Of a stretch of DNA of 39,629 bases, positions 6,401-39,629 are shown one piece after another. The translations under genes were made by a program, and so were the position numbers. Source of the stretch: Oscillospiraceae bacterium (GTDB taxonomy: Bacteria; Bacillota; Clostridia; Oscillospirales; Oscillospiraceae); assembly GCA_017440525.1 (NCBI GenBank), contig JAFSHB010000035.1, positions 1 to 39,629 of the forward strand. The letters are read 5' to 3'. The stretch's first letter is position 1. Each line of letters begins with the position of its first letter. The notes below the pieces were generated by a model. It did not search any database. It saw nothing but the letters and a program-made list of their open reading frames with translations, and was not told the DNA's origin.

Positions 6401-6907
6401 ATGGCAAGAGATCCGTTTGAGGTGCTGGGCATCCCGCGGGATGCTTCGGACGATGAGATCAAAAGTGCATACAGGAAACTGGCAAAGCGATATCATCCGG
6501 ATCTGAATCCCGGCGATCCTTCTGCGGCGCAGCGGATGCATGAGGTCAACGAGGCTTACGAACGCATCCGGAACGGATATGTTCCCCACGAGCAGACGGC
6601 CTATCGCGACCCCTATCATCAGGACACCTGCACGCCCAACGATGGAGCGGAGGCCGATATCTTTGATGACCTCTTCGGAGATGTATTCGATGCCTTTGAA
6701 AACAGGCAGAGCAGCAGGCCCGAGCGCCCCATCCGGCTCTGGCCCATCCTCAAGCTGGTGGTGGTCATCTATCTGCTGACCTCTCTGGTGAGCTGTATGT
6801 TCCTCCCCATCCGGAATGCGCGCGACCATTACTATAGAAATTACAGACAAGACCCCTATACCAGCGACGGAGATCCGCGCACCACATATCCTTACGACTG
6901 GAGCTGA
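6401..6907 (+). CDS. Membrane-anchored J-domain co-chaperone
   Basis: A 168-residue protein with a full N-terminal J domain (residues 4-60; HPD at 32-34), which stimulates Hsp70 ATP hydrolysis. There is no Gly/Phe region, zinc-finger or substrate-binding domain of true DnaJ. Residues 61-112 are an acidic linker, 113-134 form one membrane helix, and a short charged tail follows. It therefore likely recruits DnaK to the membrane. The ATG at 6401 lies downstream of GAGGAAAGAGG. First gene of a three-gene operon; GrpE starts 4 bases after its stop. It is a J-protein rather than dnaJ proper. Confidence 0.88.
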
Positions 6908-6911
6908 AGCA

Positions 6912-7358
6912 ATGGGCCTGTTTTTTAGAAAAGAGCCTGCCGGAGATGACCGGATGGACGCTCTGATGCAGGAATTCACCAATTATCGCCGCAGGACCGC
7001 ACAGGAGCTGGAGGCCGCCCACGAAAAAGCGGCACGGGAGACGATCCTCCCATTTCTCTCCCTGTATGACGATCTGGCGAGAGCCTTGGATGCCCCCTGT
7101 TCCGATGAGAGCTACCGAAAAGGCATCGAGCTGATCTTTAAAAACCTGTTAGCAGCGCTGGCATCCCTGAATGTCTGCCCCATGGATTCCAAAGGCAAGA
7201 TCTTCAACCCCGCCTACCATGATGCCGTCCGGCAGATCGACGACCCCGCCCTTCGAAAGGAAGAGATCGCGGAGGTCCTGCAAGTAGGTTTTCTGATGGA
7301 TGACGAGGTCATCCGCCACGCCAAGGTGGTCGTGGCAAATTGCGACGAAAAGGAGTGA
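6912..7358 (+). CDS. grpE: GrpE-like nucleotide exchange factor (short)
   Basis: A 148-residue GrpE homologue, the nucleotide exchange factor of DnaK. Helical part [13 protein letters not shown] ... [15 protein letters not shown] and the C-terminal beta domain ([10 protein letters not shown] ... VLQVGF) are recognisable. It is shorter than the usual ~190 residues because the acidic N-terminal extension and part of the long coiled coil are missing. It starts 4 bases after the J-protein stop and ends 4 bases before the DnaK start, so the three are clearly co-transcribed. Confidence 0.85.
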
Positions 7359-7362
7359 CCCC

Positions 7363-8952
7363 ATGGGCCATATCATCGGTATCGATCTTGGCACCACTAA
7401 CAGTTGTGTGTGTGTCATGGAGGGCGGCGAGCCTGCGGTCATCCCCAATGCCGAAGGCAGCAGAACGACTCCATCTGTGGTGGCCTTTTCCCGCACAGGC
7501 GAGCGCATGGTCGGCGATCTCGCCAAGCGGCAGACTGTGACCAATCACGAGCGCACGATCTGCTCCATCAAGCGGGATATGGGTTCAGACCGCAAAGTGA
7601 ATATCGACGGCAAGCGCTACACACCGCAGGAGATATCCGCCATGGTGCTGCAAAAGCTGAAGGCCGATGCGGAGAGCTATCTGGGCGGCCCTGTGACAGA
7701 AGCCGTGATCACGGTGCCGGCCTACTTCACCGATGCCCAGCGGCAGGCCACCAAGGACGCCGGCAAGATCGCGGGGCTGGATGTGAAGCGGATCATCAAC
7801 GAGCCCACAGCGGCGGCGCTGGCCTACGGCATGGACAAGGAGGAGAGCCAGAAGATCATGGTCTACGACCTTGGCGGCGGCACCTTCGATGTCTCCATCC
7901 TGGAGATCTCCGACCATGTGATCGAAGTGCTGGCCACCGCCGGCAACAACCACTTAGGCGGCGACGATTTCGACGACTGCGTGGCAGAATATTTGGTCAA
8001 AGAGTTCAGGCGGGAGCATCGGCTGGATCTCAGCCGGGATCCTGTTGCCATGCAGCGCATCCGCGAAGCGGCGGAAAAGGCAAAGATCGAGCTGTCCGCC
8101 ATGAGCCAGACAGATATCTCGCTCCCCTATATCACCGCAGGCCGCGATGGTCCGCTCCACTTGGAAGTCACCCTCACAAGAGCCAGATTCAATGAGCTGA
8201 CCGCCCATCTGGTGCAGGCCACGAGAGGCCCGGTGGAGCAGGCGATCAATGATTCCGGCGTGCCGATCGCAGAGATCTCAAAGGTCCTGATGGTGGGTGG
8301 GTCTACCCGGATCCCCGCCGTACAGGAGCTGGTCCATTCCATGACGGGCCGTCTCCCCTTCAAGGGCATCAACCCCGATGAATGCGTCGCCATGGGCGCG
8401 TGTCTGCAGGGCGGTGTGCTCTCCGGTGCCATGAAGGGCCTGCTCTTATTGGATGTGACGCCCCTGAGCCTCGGCATCGAGACCGTGGGCGGTATCTGTA
8501 CCCGCGTGATCGAGCGCAACACCACGCTTCCCATCAAAAAAAGCCAGATCTTCACCACCGCCGCCAACTTCCAGACCTCGGTGGATGTCCATGTGCTGCA
8601 GGGCGAGCGCCCTCTGGCACGGCAGAACAAGGAGCTGGGACGCTTCCAACTGACCGGCATCCGCAGAGCCATGCGGGGCGTGCCGCAGATCGAAGTGACC
8701 TTCGCCATCGATGCCAACGGCATCGTCAATGTTTCGGCAAAGGATCTGGCCACCGGCATCGCTCAGGCGATCACCATCACCGCTTCCTCCAACATGAGCC
8801 AGGCCGAGATCGACCGTGCTGTTCGGGAGGCACAGCAGTATGCCGCCGAGGATGCAAGGATGAGGTCCGAGGCCGAAGCCCGCGACCGCTTCCACGCAAA
8901 ACAAAACACCCATGACGATGATGCCATGGATGCAGAATTTGAACAGCTATAA
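7363..8952 (+). CDS. dnaK: DnaK-family Hsp70 chaperone with shortened lid
   Basis: A 529-residue Hsp70. The nucleotide-binding domain is complete ([47 protein letters not shown]), with the interdomain linker [15 protein letters not shown] and the beta-sandwich substrate domain. Standard DnaK has about 610 residues: here the helical lid is cut by roughly 80 residues, yet an acidic tail ([11 protein letters not shown]) like that of DnaK remains. The ATG follows AAAGGAGTGACCCC. The gene order J-GrpE-DnaK, without HrcA, and the membrane J-protein suggest a specialised second DnaK system; a housekeeping dnaK probably exists elsewhere (inference). Confidence 0.93.
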
Positions 8953-33805: not shown

Positions 33806-35122
33806 TCACTGCTTTATATACAAAAGTTCCCCCAGTTTTGATTCTGTTCCATCTGTATTGGTCGCGTATACGGAACGCAACAGCGTTCCGTCGCTCTGTC
33901 GGGTCAACTCCATGACAAAGTCAGAAGTCTCATCCGATGCATATCTCAACATCGTATCATCCATGCTGATGATCATATATTCGTATGTATATTCTCCAGA
34001 TCTATAATATATCGTATTCGCTCCCACATCGATCAGAAACGAAGCATCATCATACCATGTATGATCTTCGCCGCCAATGGATCCATATATGTTGTACATG
34101 CCATCCCACAGGCTGTCGAGCTGAACACTGCCGCTTTCAAGGCTCGTATCTCCTGTGCCGAGATCTGCAGTCGTCCATTGGTCATGATCCGGAACAGCAT
34201 CATCGATCTTGAACCAAACTTTATTTGTACTCTCTGTTTCGCTTAGCATTGAAATTTCCCGTATGCCCTGATCTATTACAAGCCGCACATAGCAAAGCCG
34301 CCCATTTTCCGCCCAAAAAGTAAATTCATCACTTTTATCTGTTTTGCAGATCGTCCACTTCTCGCTGACCGTATCATCTTCATACAGCTCATAAACGATG
34401 CCGTTATCGGGATCAATGATGACAAGATCTCCTGTAAATATCATCTCACCATTTTCATCGTACTGCAAGGTCCCATCGTCATTTGCATAGTACTTTCCCC
34501 ACACACCGGCAAAGCCTTCGTCGATCCTTTCAACGATCGGTCCACGCTCTACAGCATCTGTCTCCTGTTCGCTCGACGCTTCGATGCCTTCCTTTTTATT
34601 TTCAGATCCCATTTCCACATGAGAAGTGTCTTCTCCCGATGTCTTTTCTGACGGTGCGCTGTTCTTACCTGTCCATCTGAGCAAAAGCGCACCGACAACG
34701 ACTCCGCAAAGAAACAGCGCCACCATCAGAAGCCAGCTTTTCTTTTTCTTCGGAGATCTTGCAGACCCTTTTTCTTCCTGCGCATCGATCTTGCTTTCGG
34801 CTGTATCACTTTTTGTGCTCTGCGGCAGAGATTCGACCGTCACCTCTTCCGATGCGTCGTCTTGCTGCCTTTCGCCGGACGCATCAAGACTTTCACTACC
34901 AGGATCCACATCCTGCTCAGCCGTTTCCATACTATCGATCGAAGAGATCTCATCTGATGGGCGCGGTTCGTCTGTTCTCTGCACCACACTTTCTGTTTCC
35001 GGCGCAGTCTCACGCAATTCTTCCTCTATCTGTGTTTTCTCGGCCTCCCATATCGATTCGCCGCAAAAACAGCACTGCGAATGTCCTTCGGGTACGATCG
35101 CATTACAAAATGGACAATTCAT
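33806..35122 (-). CDS. Zinc-ribbon membrane protein, function unknown
   Basis: A 438-residue protein. A zinc ribbon is at the N-terminus (Cys3, Cys6, Cys17 or 18, Cys20). A Glu/Ser-rich disordered linker covers ~25-125, a single membrane helix 129-150, a second acidic linker to ~195, and then an outside domain of ~240 residues rich in Trp/Tyr and acidic residues. The latter seems to have repeated beta-strand units (GDLVIIDPDNGIVYELYEDD; ASFLIDVGANTIYYRSGEYT). I do not recognise the outer domain. Last gene of the Hsp70/AAA cassette; ribosome site GAGAGGAATAGCG. Confidence 0.75.
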   Translation of the reverse strand: MNCPFCNAIVPEGHSQCCFCGESIWEAEKTQIEEELRETAPETESVVQRTDEPRPSDEISSIDSMETAEQDVDPGSESLDASGERQQDDASEEVTVESLPQSTKSDTAESKIDAQEEKGSARSPKKKKSWLLMVALFLCGVVVGALLLRWTGKNSAPSEKTSGEDTSHVEMGSENKKEGIEASSEQETDAVERGPIVERIDEGFAGVWGKYYANDDGTLQYDENGEMIFTGDLVIIDPDNGIVYELYEDDTVSEKWTICKTDKSDEFTFWAENGRLCYVRLVIDQGIREISMLSETESTNKVWFKIDDAVPDHDQWTTADLGTGDTSLESGSVQLDSLWDGMYNIYGSIGGEDHTWYDDASFLIDVGANTIYYRSGEYTYEYMIISMDDTMLRYASDETSDFVMELTRQSDGTLLRSVYATNTDGTESKLGELLYIKQ

Positions 35123-35144
35123 CGCTATTCCTCTCTATTTTACA

Positions 35145-36146
35145 TTATACACGATTCTCTTCCTGTTGCTCATGGGCGCGTATCGCATACATCATACCGA
35201 TCATGTACGCACTTTCTGCTGCATCCTGAATGGCATGATCGATCTCCGCTGCTGGCTGTACGCTTTCGGCGATCTCCAACACAGACCGAACATAACCATA
35301 GATCATATCCCAAAGTGCCGTGCAGGCTGTTTCATCATGTTGTATCCCCAACAGCCTCTCTGCCGTCGTTCCCGCTTGCTCCAGATCCATATGGTCGATC
35401 AGGTAATCAAATGGATCTGTATTTGCAAACCCACTCTTATCTTGATAGTAAAATAATGTTGCACACACCGATGCATAGAAAGCTGTCAAAATGCTTTCAC
35501 TTCGCACCTTTTCGCTGCCCAGTGATCCATACTGTTTTTTACAGAAAAGTATCGTTCTGTGCGTAAATGTTTCTTTTCTGCAGATGACCCGTTCTGTGAC
35601 CACCCTGCCATCTGCTCCGCACAAACCATTTTCCTGCAAAACAGTATAGGCGAGCGCTGTCATTTTATCGATCGCATGATCGAGCGTATATGTTATCCCC
35701 CCATCGACTGCGCCATCCTCGATCAGCTTCTCCTTCAACTTCCGAACATTTGCATGGTCGTAGAGGCTCAATATAGTATTGGCAAGTAACATGGCCGCAT
35801 CTGTATGCCCAATGCTTCGTAATACGATCGCTTTCCCAAACAGAGCATCACCATAGGTCGGGTCTATCGCGATCGCTCGGTCAAAGGCATCCAGGGCATT
35901 ATTGTATTCTGCTCTCATTCCGTATGCATTGCCCAAGCTCACCCATGCATCCGCAAAACGCGGCTCTGCAAACAAAGCCCGTTTATACTGCCGGATAGCC
36001 AGTTCCGTGTCACCTTCAGCAACCGCAGCATCTCCATCCGATTTCATTGCAAAGGTACATCGTGTGCAGATATCGGAACATTGTTCCCTTCGATCTTTGT
36101 ACTCACATCTGAGATGCTTGCTCTCATTTCTGCCCCATGAATGCAT
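35145..36146 (-). CDS. TPR-repeat protein with N-terminal cysteine cluster
   Basis: A 333-residue protein without membrane helix. Cys14, Cys23, Cys27 and Cys30 near the N-terminus may bind a metal. Residues ~35-125 hold about three TPR units (DAAVAEGDTELAIRQYKRAL; DAWVSLGNAYGMRAEYNNAL; DALFGKAIVLRSIGHTDAAM), normally protein-protein docking surfaces. The C-terminal ~200 residues are helical and not recognised. TPRs often bind Hsp70 tails, which fits the cassette. The start at 36146 has GGAGGGCATAAT; 26 bases separate it from the upstream gene. Confidence 0.75.
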   Translation of the reverse strand: MHSWGRNESKHLRCEYKDRREQCSDICTRCTFAMKSDGDAAVAEGDTELAIRQYKRALFAEPRFADAWVSLGNAYGMRAEYNNALDAFDRAIAIDPTYGDALFGKAIVLRSIGHTDAAMLLANTILSLYDHANVRKLKEKLIEDGAVDGGITYTLDHAIDKMTALAYTVLQENGLCGADGRVVTERVICRKETFTHRTILFCKKQYGSLGSEKVRSESILTAFYASVCATLFYYQDKSGFANTDPFDYLIDHMDLEQAGTTAERLLGIQHDETACTALWDMIYGYVRSVLEIAESVQPAAEIDHAIQDAAESAYMIGMMYAIRAHEQQEENRV

Positions 36147-36172
36147 ATTATGCCCTCCGCATCATTCTGTTC

Positions 36173-38053
36173 CTACTTTATTGACTCAAACTTCAGGACC
36201 ATATCCCCTATTTTTGCAGACAATCCTTCACAAAGCACATCTGTCTTTCTGGCTTCGCCACGTATCCTTTTTGCCGGAGAATAGTTGATGGTTTTGAAAT
36301 CGGCATACAAAGAGCTAAGCGATGCATTTGAATCGATATATGTGTTATATTCATCGATGCTCATATACACCCAAACAATGGTTTCTGCACTCGTTCTGCA
36401 CTTACACGCCACATCTGTGTATGCATATGTACCTTCTATGCCAACAGAATACACCGGCTCTATAGAGGTGATATCCGCATATACTTCCTCTCCGCTTTCG
36501 GCACTTTGCGTAAACACGACAGCATATGTCTGCTTTGGCGTATATTTTGTGGTACTTGAACTTCCGGGACCGCCTGTGCAGCTCGAAAGCAGACCGCCTA
36601 TGAGAAAGATCAAAACTATTAACCCGATCCAAACAGAGCATCCCAGCGGCAGCTCCGCTGCTCTTTTTTGCGGGGCAGTTACCGATGCCATCTGCTTGTT
36701 GAACAGTTGCTGATTTAATATCGACACATCTTCATGTTGTTTCCCTTGCAAAGAAGACAGCCCCGAGAACTCAAGTTCCAGCACCTTCGCAAGCTTTAAT
36801 GCACGCTCCGTCTGCTGCTTCTTATTGTGGAGTTCCAGCACCACCTCTCGCGCCAGATAAAAAAGTTCCTCTCGCATCTGCTCTTTTGTACCAACTCGCA
36901 TACCACTGGCTCTGATTCTTGCATTTAATTGCCGGATCTTGTCGATCAAAACATTTAGATCATCCTCTGTTGTGATGCGTTTGACTTCCTCTGCAAATTT
37001 TCTCAGCGCTCTCATCTGCATATCAAGCGCTTCTCTCACATCTGCATCTTTTAAAATCTCATCCAGCGCCTTTTCGTCTTCCAAAAGCTTCTCAGCAAGT
37101 TCAGCAAGCTCACTAAACAGCTCCTTCATCGCCCAAACCAGCTTTTGTGCAACCTTCGTTAAACCAAGTTCGTTATGTAGATACACACCTAACTCGCGAA
37201 GTTCTCGTCCGACCTTTTGGCTGTCATTGTGAGGCATACCACTGACCATAGATCGTATTTGCAGTGGCTGGACCAGCGCATCCCATGCTCTGACTTCTTC
37301 GATCAGTTTATCCACACTTCCTTCAACTGCAGCCACTTCACTTGTCGCCCGCAATTCTTCTATATGACAAAGGATCTCTTCTGTTGCTGTTTCGATCTTT
37401 GAAGACATTCTTAAGGCATATTGGTCGATCACATCAGAAATAATAATGTGGTCGGATCCACCGTTGGTAAAATGTTTTTCTGCGAGTATCGTTACAAAAA
37501 ACACATACTCATTTTCATCCATACCTTCCAACCGTGCGTTAATGATCCGACGGATCCTCTCTCTTTTCCCTGTTTGTTCAGCAGCAACATCATGCAGCGA
37601 GACCATCGCCAACCGCGCCTCATCTCTGTTCTGATTGATGGTCCGGGTCAACTGCTCCGGATCGATCGCGCAGAACATCTCATCGATCTCAACAAGTGCA
37701 TATCCAAGTTCAAAAGCATCCACTCCAGAAGCTATCGAAAAGTTGTACAAACCGGAATTTAGTTTGGATAACGGCGCCAAACTCTCTACAAAAATTGTTT
37801 TTCCTTCATCTATATGTTCTACTATTTGCTGTATTGTCTGTTCATCAGAATCCGTGAACCAGTCCCACTCCGCAGACAACCTCTTAGCAGGATTCAACAA
37901 CGCATTTTGAGCCTCGGTGCATATGTCAACATCGTACAAAAAGCTCATTTCCTCTACAGCCGCCATGATCGCTCTTCTTGAATCAGAGCAAGAAACTCGA
38001 AGCAACCAAAAAGGATTTGATTTGATCCACATCGCCGATTTGTCCATGTCCAT
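36173..38053 (-). CDS. Large J-like/coiled-coil membrane protein, function unknown
   Basis: A 626-residue protein. The N-terminus (residues ~12-68: NPFWLLRVS, then LLNPAKRLSAEWDWF) resembles a J domain, but HPD is absent (the helix turn reads SFLYDVD). Residues ~70-460 are mostly helical with long heptad-like stretches around 300-430. A membrane helix covers 473-492, and a Gly/Ser linker and a beta-rich outer domain of ~130 residues follow. It may be an Hsp70-binding scaffold in the membrane. The ATG at 38053 follows AAAGAGGTGTA; it lies 21 bases after the AAA+ gene. Confidence 0.75.
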   Translation of the reverse strand: MDMDKSAMWIKSNPFWLLRVSCSDSRRAIMAAVEEMSFLYDVDICTEAQNALLNPAKRLSAEWDWFTDSDEQTIQQIVEHIDEGKTIFVESLAPLSKLNSGLYNFSIASGVDAFELGYALVEIDEMFCAIDPEQLTRTINQNRDEARLAMVSLHDVAAEQTGKRERIRRIINARLEGMDENEYVFFVTILAEKHFTNGGSDHIIISDVIDQYALRMSSKIETATEEILCHIEELRATSEVAAVEGSVDKLIEEVRAWDALVQPLQIRSMVSGMPHNDSQKVGRELRELGVYLHNELGLTKVAQKLVWAMKELFSELAELAEKLLEDEKALDEILKDADVREALDMQMRALRKFAEEVKRITTEDDLNVLIDKIRQLNARIRASGMRVGTKEQMREELFYLAREVVLELHNKKQQTERALKLAKVLELEFSGLSSLQGKQHEDVSILNQQLFNKQMASVTAPQKRAAELPLGCSVWIGLIVLIFLIGGLLSSCTGGPGSSSTTKYTPKQTYAVVFTQSAESGEEVYADITSIEPVYSVGIEGTYAYTDVACKCRTSAETIVWVYMSIDEYNTYIDSNASLSSLYADFKTINYSPAKRIRGEARKTDVLCEGLSAKIGDMVLKFESIK

Positions 38054-38074
38054 TACACCTCTTTTTATGCTCAG

Positions 38075-39457
38075 TTATACAAAACCAATTCTTCTTTTTT
38101 CTTCTTTGGGTACAAGCTGTTCTATTGCTACATCAAAACAGTGTTGATCGATAACATCCAAATTTTGTTTGATCGCAGCTTTTCCCGCTTCTCGCAAAAT
38201 AAATGCCACATCTGACAGGGGGCGATCAGCAAGCTTTTCTGCGATGGGTCGAATGCACACATCCTCAGCGATCGGCAACTCTTGCAGCTTGTGCACCAGC
38301 AATCCCTGAATCTCGTCTGCATTCGCCAACTTCACCTCAATGATATTGTCGAACCTTCCTTTGCGGATCACCGCAGGGTCGATCGTATCCAGCAAGTTTG
38401 TCATTGCAAAGATCAGCACGCCCGCTTCAACAGCCTCGGGGATCTTCCGCAAAAATTCTGCGACCTCTTCCACATGATGCGTTCCCGAACCAAAATTATT
38501 TCGATTCGAAAGGAATGCCTCCATTTCATCGATCACGAGAATAGACGGTGCATTTGAAATGGCTTGCTCAAAAACCTCAGCCACTTTCTTGCTCGTGTCA
38601 TGGATGTATGGGCTTGCGACCGTATCGGAATCAATATCAAATCGAGGCCACTGCAAATACTCGGCCAATCGTTCCACAGCATAGGTCTTTCCGCTACCGG
38701 GAGGGCCATGCAAGACCGTTGCTCCCGGAAAGCCAATACCCATCCGGGCATACTGCTCTTGATTTATAACGATATCGATGATGCTTTCATTAAAAAACGC
38801 TTCCAGTTCCGGCCGTCCCGGCAAAACAAATCTCTCTTTATCCATTAGCGCAGTCTTTGCACTCTCTCTTCGCAAAGCCAGCTCCTCTTTATTGGTCTCT
38901 TTCGGTTTTTCCACATCAAAGCCCGCCGTCTGCGCGCATTGGAGCAAAACATCTCCCGGCAGCCACGACAGGATCTCGCTCATGCGGTCAAAGTTTGTGA
39001 TGGAAATACCAATACCTCCGGCGAGCCATCTGCCGTAAGCTGCCCCATTGTCCGCATTCTCGATATCCGGCGCAGTCGGCAAAAGCAAAGAGAATTCTTC
39101 AACATAGATCGCATTGCGCAGGTCCAGCGCAGGAGATTCTTTCAGACTTTTTTGCACCGCAACAGAAAATGCCTCTATCTGTGCCTGTTTTTTAGGAAAC
39201 GGTCCTTTGTCCACGGAGGCGATCAGATAGCCATTGGCAGAAGGCAGAATGAAGCCTTCCGCACCTTCGATTTTCTGAAACAAGCCGACAGGAAGCGCAT
39301 GGTCCTTACACCACCGGGCATAAAGCTGCGGCAGTACAGCAAGAACATATGTACCATGATTTGTCAAAAAGATCTGCCATGCATCACCTTCAGCGATCAT
39401 CTTTGTGACCTTTCTATCCTGTGTTATCAAATACCCTCGCGGAAGCAATGCGTTCAT
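38075..39457 (-). CDS. AAA+ ATPase with unknown N-terminal domain
   Basis: A 460-residue protein. Residues ~1-200 form an unrecognised domain. The AAA+ module (~210-450) has Walker A GPPGSGKT (251-258), Walker B ILVIDE (306-311), sensor-1 Asn354, arginine-finger-type residues in DPAVIRKGRFDN, and the helical lid (LSDVAFILREAGKAA). The closest types are the classic AAA (Cdc48/FtsH-like) unfoldases and remodellers; no protease domain is attached. It starts 4 bases after the stop of the upstream Hsp70-like gene, so the two are co-transcribed. The substrate is unknown. Confidence 0.88.
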   Translation of the reverse strand: MNALLPRGYLITQDRKVTKMIAEGDAWQIFLTNHGTYVLAVLPQLYARWCKDHALPVGLFQKIEGAEGFILPSANGYLIASVDKGPFPKKQAQIEAFSVAVQKSLKESPALDLRNAIYVEEFSLLLPTAPDIENADNGAAYGRWLAGGIGISITNFDRMSEILSWLPGDVLLQCAQTAGFDVEKPKETNKEELALRRESAKTALMDKERFVLPGRPELEAFFNESIIDIVINQEQYARMGIGFPGATVLHGPPGSGKTYAVERLAEYLQWPRFDIDSDTVASPYIHDTSKKVAEVFEQAISNAPSILVIDEMEAFLSNRNNFGSGTHHVEEVAEFLRKIPEAVEAGVLIFAMTNLLDTIDPAVIRKGRFDNIIEVKLANADEIQGLLVHKLQELPIAEDVCIRPIAEKLADRPLSDVAFILREAGKAAIKQNLDVIDQHCFDVAIEQLVPKEEKRRIGFV

Positions 39458-39461
39458 CTCA

Positions 39462-39629
39462 TCATCCCTTTACTATATTTGCAATGTCATACATTCCGTT
39501 GCCGGAATGACTCTGTACCCGAATAGAGAGCAGTTCGAACAGAATATCTCTGAGCTGATCGATGTCATCTGCCGCAAGTGCCCGCTCTCCCTGCGCTTTC
39601 AGTTCGGCAAACCGTTTTTTATCAAGGTA
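39462..39629 (-). CDS. C-terminal end of a probable Hsp70-family protein (partial)
   Basis: Reading frame entering from the right edge and ending in two successive stop codons (TGA TGA). The 55 visible residues are charged and helical (RFAELKAQGERALAADD, then LRDILFELLSIRV) and end in MYDIANIVKG. From memory, Hsp70-like proteins of such cassettes finish in a helical segment of this kind closing with an ANIVRG-like tail, but the ATPase domain lies outside the window, so the call is tentative. It is upstream of and nearly joined to the AAA+ gene. Confidence 0.5.
   Translation of the reverse strand, partial: YLDKKRFAELKAQGERALAADDIDQLRDILFELLSIRVQSHSGNGMYDIANIVKG

Follow-up and report, generated by a model that had tools for sequence, protein, structure and literature searches.

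The Hsp70/AAA+ bichaperone formed by DnaK–DnaJ–GrpE and the ClpB disaggregase is among the closest described counterparts of the gene cassette reported here, which lies at the right-hand end of contig JAFSHB010000035.1 of an Oscillospiraceae bacterium (the whole contig, 39,629 nucleotides ending at position 39629, is referred to below as the window; its source metagenome-assembled genome, MAG, is given as 80.79% complete). Both combine an Hsp70 ATPase domain with a GrpE-like exchange factor, an AAA protein and what may be, in the cassette, a J-type partner. The ClpB/Hsp100 disaggregase has two Clp-type AAA modules, whereas the cassette AAA protein has a single Cdc48/PAN-type module in 460 residues, with an N-terminal part of its own. 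Unlike DnaJ, the J-like proteins of the cassette do without the HPD tripeptide (absent from the first 300 residues in 62 of 62) and, unlike DnaK, its Hsp70s do without the DnaK-type interdomain linker, the LLLD motif (0 of 53 relatives by a simple pattern). Moreover, the cassette is encoded as one mobile unit together with membrane proteins.

The transmissible locus of stress tolerance (tLST) has a different gene set from the cassette, with ClpK and sHsp20 as hallmark genes, among others. Like the cassette, it is described as a mobile stress and protein-quality island in Proteobacteria (PMC8407380, PMC8290217). The GAP1-N2 GTPase conflict systems are predicted to rely on HSP70, GrpE and DnaJ-FNIII proteins of their own (Kaur et al., 2020; PMC7159879), a set resembling that of the cassette; as presented in that account, however, they are centred on GTPases and FNIII proteins, and it names neither such an AAA protein nor tagged membrane proteins. 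CoCoNuTs are restriction-type systems in which an Hsp70-like part is joined to or lies beside McrB/McrC homologues; the ATPase motifs of this part are degenerate, and RNA is its presumed ligand (PMC11090510). They have in common with the cassette the use of Hsp70-like domains, whereas the cassette Hsp70, compared with those described there, is free-standing, keeps its ATPase motifs and is accompanied by private co-chaperones. Finally, Zorya (ZorAB), which adjoins one cassette copy, is a membrane system that protects against phages and requires its peptidoglycan-binding domain to do so (PMC11890865). The cassette resembles it in combining membrane proteins with a peptidoglycan-binding domain, but Zorya is a MotAB-like complex, for which the account names no chaperone set and no such N-terminal tag.

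No description of the cassette gene set was found in the open-licence PMC literature, although a name may exist in subscription papers or preprints outside it, and PADLOC, NCBIfam and Pfam gave no specific system name for the scanned core proteins, in line with the initial annotation of the window, which knew of no named system with this set. With PADLOC 2.0.0, the window AAA protein matched the IetA (best, 6e-24), TRIP13 and mad8 models, none of which covers its N-terminal part, and the window J-like protein matched mad2 at 8.3e-4; nothing was matched by the scanned proteins from relatives (two GrpE-like, two Hsp70 and three J-like). We rejected IetAS because the match is limited to the AAA part and, with 79.8 bits for the NCBIfam model of the anti-phage ATPase IteA, does not come near the curated cut-off of 510; no match to IetS was found among four window and ten relative proteins.

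The gene content and order of the cassette, its co-transfer, the predicted GrpE fold of its first gene, an N-terminal tag restricted to the locus, the swapping of protein ends in part of the close pairs and the defence genes near some copies lead us to regard it, with about even confidence, as a mobile chaperone machine linked to membrane proteins that face the envelope, with a probable role against phages.

A conserved core of GrpE-like, Hsp70, AAA and J-like genes

The initial annotation described five minus-strand genes separated by 4, 21, 26 and 22 bases and read them as a single system made up of an Hsp70, an AAA+ remodeller, a J-like membrane scaffold, a TPR protein and a zinc-ribbon protein. 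The coordinates of the open reading frames (ORFs) agree with this arrangement: the last base of the Hsp70 stop codon is at 39462, leaving 4 bases to the AAA start, and gaps of 21, 26 and 22 bases separate the genes that follow. The observation itself is thus confirmed, and its interpretation is partly supported: Hsp70, AAA and J-like genes do belong together, whereas the TPR and zinc-ribbon genes are not conserved members. The GrpE-like gene, the tag and the settings in other genomes described below are additions beyond what the window shows.

Relatives of the window AAA protein were found at 69 loci with 37–55% identity, mostly in Proteobacteria with some Clostridia, and 64 of these loci hold an AAA ORF of more than 400 residues. 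Two other Clostridia carry an AAA protein 53% identical to that of the window; near-full-length matches at 37–44% come from Lachnospiraceae, Christensenellaceae, Acidaminococcus, Akkermansia, Nitrospira, Gemmatimonadetes and, for the most part, Proteobacteria. Nearer home, no relative was found in 59 related genomes (1e-50) or among a further 390 genomes sampled from the class (1e-45). The usual order is small ORF, Hsp70, AAA, an optional membrane protein and J-like. The initial annotation had staked its reading on the right-hand gene being an Hsp70 and on the genes not occurring separately in other genomes; an ORF of more than 700 residues with a GIDLGT motif lies directly upstream of AAA in 53 of the 64 loci, and a J-like gene follows AAA in 54. 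Among the 11 loci left without a detected Hsp70, five are cut by the contig end (L014, L020, L022, L031, L042) and five do contain one (L026, L029, L045, L051, L053), missed because an over-long AAA start hid it; the last, L060, is discussed below. As for the ten loci without a detected J-like gene, six reach the end of the available DNA (L017, L021, L040, L041, L059, L067), two have a J-like gene overlapping the AAA end (L016, L048), one has it by eye (L060) and only L073 has none. Across 44 loci the gene distances correlate with r = 0.81–0.93, and none of 999 permutations was as high. The conserved core consists of the GrpE-like, Hsp70, AAA and J-like genes.

The right-hand gene of the window is an Hsp70, as proposed: its 55 encoded residues match residues 773–827 of the 827-residue Hsp70 of a clostridial locus (L005) with 64% identity (E = 7.8e-16), and that protein matches PF00012 at 9.9e-58 over residues 5–363. 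Since the window contains only the tail, the ATPase domain was assessed on relatives, where GIDLGT is present in 53 of 53 proteins and D[LIV]GGGT in 51. A search of the MAG for the remainder of the gene gave no match of comparable identity to that of the tail. The AAA protein is likewise as described (PF00004 at 3.8e-26). Its best PDB matches are VCP-like, Cdc48 and Afg2 proteins, and its module is closest to Cdc48/VCP and PAN. It carries GPPGSGKT and LVIDE, which we take to be its Walker A and Walker B motifs, and an R.GRFD stretch; these motifs are present in 62 to 64 of the 64 relatives. At its C-terminus a near-invariant G-F pair (G458 and F459, each conserved in 90% or more of 22 aligned sequences) forms an IGF-like tail, which may serve as a docking tail for a partner.

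A small ORF lies upstream of Hsp70 in 53 of the 53 loci tested and overlaps the Hsp70 start by 4 bases in 47. Profile and predicted fold both identify its product as GrpE-like. Its alignment matches a GrpE alignment around FDP (hhalign score 34.9, 69%), with 100 column shuffles giving at most 23.3. The AlphaFold model (pLDDT 93.8) shows a pair of long helices together with a head of six strands; in a fold search of the PDB, ranks 1–11 are all GrpE (TMq 0.38–0.56, E = 2.1e-4 to 0.17, with one of the eleven at 0.001 or below). Two members scanned with Pfam gave no match, and the first GrpE-like profile retrieved no GrpE from the PDB sequences. These assessments concern relatives, as in the window the gene would lie beyond the contig; it was not found in the MAG by a search that lacked a positive control. 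The window does hold, at 6410-8952 on the plus strand, a row of chaperone genes, namely a canonical-looking DnaJ-domain gene, a grpE (6816-7358) and a short dnaK (550-residue ORF), and a further grpE (C64) and dnaJ (C142) are found elsewhere in the MAG.

The window J-like protein aligns by blastp with those of other loci from about residue 8 to residues 335–395. Its residues 8–80 score 23.1 against a J profile, compared with at most 17.5 in 100 shuffles; over residues 1–340 the hhalign probability is 4.6%. The model has pLDDT values mostly above 90 at residues 11–340 and of 77–86 at 341–430, with short helices at 14–17, 26–36, 42–53 and 55–63. Viral and PDB fold searches with the model gave weak matches, mostly to helical repeats, and no meaningful hit came from comparing the J-like profile with PDB sequences. 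The set examined for HPD excludes a 63rd row (L073), which had entered by size and is not a J-like protein. As to the J-like membrane scaffold of the initial annotation, a membrane helix is predicted as claimed, whereas the J-type fold is only weakly supported. In two loci, L015 (943 residues) and L024 (568 residues), a second ORF also matches the window J-like protein.

Tagged membrane proteins and horizontal movement

In the proteobacterial form of the cassette, the gene between AAA and J-like encodes a protein that starts with a GKGFAGLSSLVSDVD-like motif, usually 6–20 residues in. A loose linker connects this tag to a membrane helix, beyond which lies an outer domain that varies between proteins. 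The pattern GF[ASGT][GA][LFI]xx[LMQFK][VIA][ST] occurs in 71 of 840 ORFs and in 58 of the 69 loci, always within the first 90 residues, and in none of five shuffles of all ORFs. A membrane helix lies within 110 residues of the tag in 70 of the 71 proteins (median 73), and the stretch between them is poorly conserved (38 sequences). Annotated records outside the set used to define the pattern have the tag in five of five cases examined (E. coli, Aeromonas, Shewanella, Polaromonas and Vibrio). In Vibrio and Polaromonas it deviates from the strict pattern and was recognised by visual inspection; in Polaromonas the tagged gene is found upstream, in divergent orientation. Over 25 whole host genomes, a tag profile gave 29 matches with E values of at most 1.3e-4, all located by position in the cassette locus, in 21 genomes. 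One weak match (0.67, G079) is also in the cassette, and eight others elsewhere (0.17–0.98) look like chance. The profile found none in two Clostridia and Acidaminococcus.

Each locus encodes one to three tagged proteins; three occur together in L015:9459-17443 and in L036:9445-17211. Among the outer domains of the 71 tagged proteins (Pfam, 1e-6), PG_binding_1 is found in 25 and EGF_MSP1_1 in two, while TonB_C, SLT, SH3_3, cytochrome c and TPR models are each found in one. Non-proteobacterial forms lack the tag: the membrane helix is within the J-like protein in the window and at L005, L006, L060 and L064, and a separate untagged membrane protein follows AAA at L038 and L073.

Sequence comparison indicates that the cassette core moves horizontally as a block. 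Over 19 genomes, AAA and Hsp70 distances correlate with r = 0.93, compared with 0.22 for AAA and RecA. The AAA proteins of Sinimarinibacterium (Gammaproteobacteria) and Acidovorax (presumably Betaproteobacteria) are 99% identical and their RecA proteins 74%; for Aeromonas simiae and Lysobacter the values are 98% and 75%. The initial annotation had noted a more A/T-rich composition suggestive of transfer, and the block does look acquired: the four complete cassette genes have a GC content of 0.45–0.48 and a GC content at third codon positions (GC3) of 0.46–0.50, compared with a GC3 of 0.70–0.80 in 14 of 15 other, hand-picked ORFs of the window (0.51 in the fifteenth). In IMG/VR, five contigs hold the Hsp70, AAA, tagged and J-like genes, which makes carriage by mobile elements likely; four of them also hold the GrpE-like gene and the fifth starts at Hsp70. 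All five encode a tagged protein, four with the strict pattern. A phage origin was also considered: 76 phage records matched, none over 80% of the AAA query, and a viral function is not supported thereby.

While the core remains nearly constant, some of the outer ends are exchanged. Between loci L062 and L049, the AAA proteins are 92% identical; the J-like proteins are 89% identical over the first 450 residues and 22% over the rest, and the tagged proteins 69% over the first 100 residues and 35% thereafter. Among 53 close pairs from 46 loci (AAA identity above 85%), the J-like end is swapped in 18 (first part at least 60%, rest at most 25%), and in 29 the tagged protein is less conserved after residue 100 than before it, by 0.2 or more.

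A possible anti-phage machine and its alternatives

Several copies lie on mobile elements or beside defence genes. Tn7-like transposon genes adjoin the Aeromonas and Shewanella plasmid copies, a Polaromonas plasmid copy lies between Zorya and BREX-2 genes, and the copy of E. coli HeN100 is near RADAR rdrB and a DptF remnant in an island. This copy (L077:11454-18237) consists of five genes followed by an IS3 element. In a second E. coli copy (NH-21, L078:10841-15237) an IS1 occupies the Hsp70 position, and AAA, the HeN100 tagged-protein gene (same accession) and J-like remain; with the Aeromonas simiae AAA gene as a blastn query, 2 of 5,426 E. coli genomes match, over 35% of the query. At L005:10999-14022, a 1008-residue ORF with Metallophos and nSTAND_NTPase4 domains directly follows J-like.

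We compared 128 of 258 flank ORFs from 49 loci with 118 of 217 ORFs from 20 RecA regions, after removal from the flanks of ORFs above 900 or below 200 residues and of the accessory families of the cassette itself. In the flanks, 16 PADLOC models were matched at 1e-25, each by one protein; they include HmaB, SngA/B/C (which we take to be Shango), BrxD, BrxHI, SoFic, type IIG, MzaA, PDC-S37, DpdJ, RtcR and TniQ. In the control 30 models were matched, the 25 listed being REase_I, PD-T4-6, mad6 and C3a189, of which the last three are presumably kinase-type. Pfam recognised integrase domains in 4 of the 128 flank ORFs; the other families, among the 25 of 87 listed, are mixed and include metabolic ones. 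The difference in defence genes between flanks and controls is no more than suggestive.

From the genomic settings and the swapped ends we infer a conflict with phages. A dedicated Hsp70 machine, comprising an Hsp70 with an altered linker, a GrpE-like exchange factor, an HPD-less J-like scaffold and a Cdc48/PAN-type AAA remodeller, would act from the cytoplasmic side of the membrane, its targets being single-pass proteins that face the envelope. The shared tag would probably dock these proteins to the machine in the proteobacterial form. In the clostridial form of the window, the J-like protein would carry its own membrane helix, with beside it the zinc-ribbon membrane protein, possibly standing in for the tagged anchors. 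The variable outer domains may sense the cell wall or outer envelope or engage with it. Upon attack, most likely phage entry, the chaperones might use ATP to remodel or extract the tagged or J-linked protein, either stopping entry or causing the membrane to fail. The steps that we infer are tag docking, sensing and the anti-phage outcome. A full version of this proposal, which we hold tentatively and put at somewhat below even chances, is that of a previously undescribed bacterial immune machine: a private Hsp70–GrpE–J–AAA set whose tag recruits interchangeable envelope-spanning sensors that are remodelled on phage entry, the window representing a branch with anchor and J-like scaffold fused into one protein. 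If so, the Hsp70 cycle would be the moving part of an exchangeable envelope machine instead of serving general folding, and the joint loss of the DnaK-type linker and HPD would be a natural case of an Hsp70 rewired to other J-type and AAA partners. The tag would be an address code open to direct testing, and the near-constant core with swapped ends offers a handle on what the ends recognise.

A number of points weigh against such an anti-phage machine. Its link to phages comes from genomic context, and the scanned cassette proteins include no recognisable nuclease, NADase or other toxic effector. The defence enrichment is modest (10/128 against 2/118, p = 0.024; 12 against 2, p = 0.008; 10 against 4, p = 0.11), and these values depend on our own count of distinct proteins and on RecA regions, an easy control. 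The J-like end is kept (rest at least 60%) in 29 of the 53 close pairs, and when two Clostridia are added (21 of the 25 genomes) the AAA–RecA correlation rises to 0.57, with 0.96 for AAA–Hsp70. The tag pattern was written after seeing these sequences, and the independent records and the whole-genome test therefore weigh more; moreover, since the window form has no tag, the argument from the tag is not directly transferable to it. The J-type identity of the J-like protein is weak, with an hhalign probability of 31% for residues 8–80 and no J domain among the best 50 of 631 PDB fold matches of the whole-chain model. Finally, the Acidaminococcus locus (L060:1-7995) has AAA and J-like genes, with no GIDLGT Hsp70 in the available locus DNA.

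The same chaperone-type core could instead provide mobile stress tolerance, an explanation that we find unlikely, though deserving of serious weight. Mobile stress loci are described in beta- and gamma-Proteobacteria (PMC8290217), genes for metal resistance are found close to the cassette in Aeromonas and Shewanella, and peptidoglycan-binding outer domains would suit envelope care. Yet several copies sit among defence genes, the swapped outer ends on a near-constant core in some close pairs suggest conflict rather than housekeeping, and no tLST hallmark gene was recognised among the cassette proteins scanned with Pfam, a search that did not extend to the flanks. The outer domains also bear on a quite improbable third possibility, in which the chaperones insert the tagged proteins and assemble them into an envelope structure for secretion, adhesion or contact-dependent competition, the tag being the assembly signal. 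The variable outer domains of the one to three tagged proteins per locus, the restriction of the tag to the locus and the single TonB_C and SLT domains would fit such a role; the scanned cassette proteins, however, yielded no recognisable secretin, pilin, translocase or secreted toxin, and the E. coli HeN100 copy has only its five genes before IS3. That unrelated genes lie adjacent by chance is scarcely credible: the TPR and zinc-ribbon genes do lack conservation as neighbours, but the order of the core is maintained across phyla at AAA identities near 40%, with the invariable GrpE-like ORF, its frequent 4-base overlap and the correlated gene distances given above, and this conservation contradicts chance adjacency.

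Cassette genes of the window and accessory genes

Table 1. Genes of the cassette in the window.
Feature	Position	Strand	Remarks
Hsp70-family gene, 3′ end (55 codons and stop)	39462..39629	-	Cut by contig end; translation 64% identical to the L005 Hsp70 tail
AAA ATPase, 460 residues	38075..39457	-	N-terminal part of about 215 residues without Pfam match; one Cdc48/PAN-type AAA module
J-like membrane protein, 626 residues	36173..38053	-	Possible J-type N-terminus without HPD; helical core; variable outer part
TPR protein, 333 residues	35145..36146	-	N-terminal cysteine cluster; TPR models; local accessory gene
Zinc-ribbon protein, 438 residues	33806..35122	-	C..C pairs at N-terminus; outer domain; local accessory gene

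The initial annotation had recognised a TPR protein with a cysteine cluster, and seven TPR models are indeed above the Pfam cut-offs, with the cluster visible by eye near the start of the protein. It has one generic blastp match in the 69 loci (L018) and is absent from the 59 related genomes at 1e-15. For the zinc-ribbon protein, a Pfam scan gave nothing above cut-off, and no match was found in the 69 loci (blastp) or in the 59 related genomes (1e-5). Without specific counterparts in either set, the two genes were rejected as core parts. A crude hydropathy scan, used here in place of a topology predictor, places a single membrane helix near residue 473 of the J-like protein and near residue 136 of the zinc-ribbon protein, so that two members of the window probably cross the membrane, as had been suggested.

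In other genomes, a recurrent protein of about 214 residues is encoded downstream of J-like in 14 loci (for example L008:13318-13959 and L027:12133-12786), one member of which has no Pfam match. Further recurrent families often lie near it, of about 350 (tagged), 217 and 208 residues.

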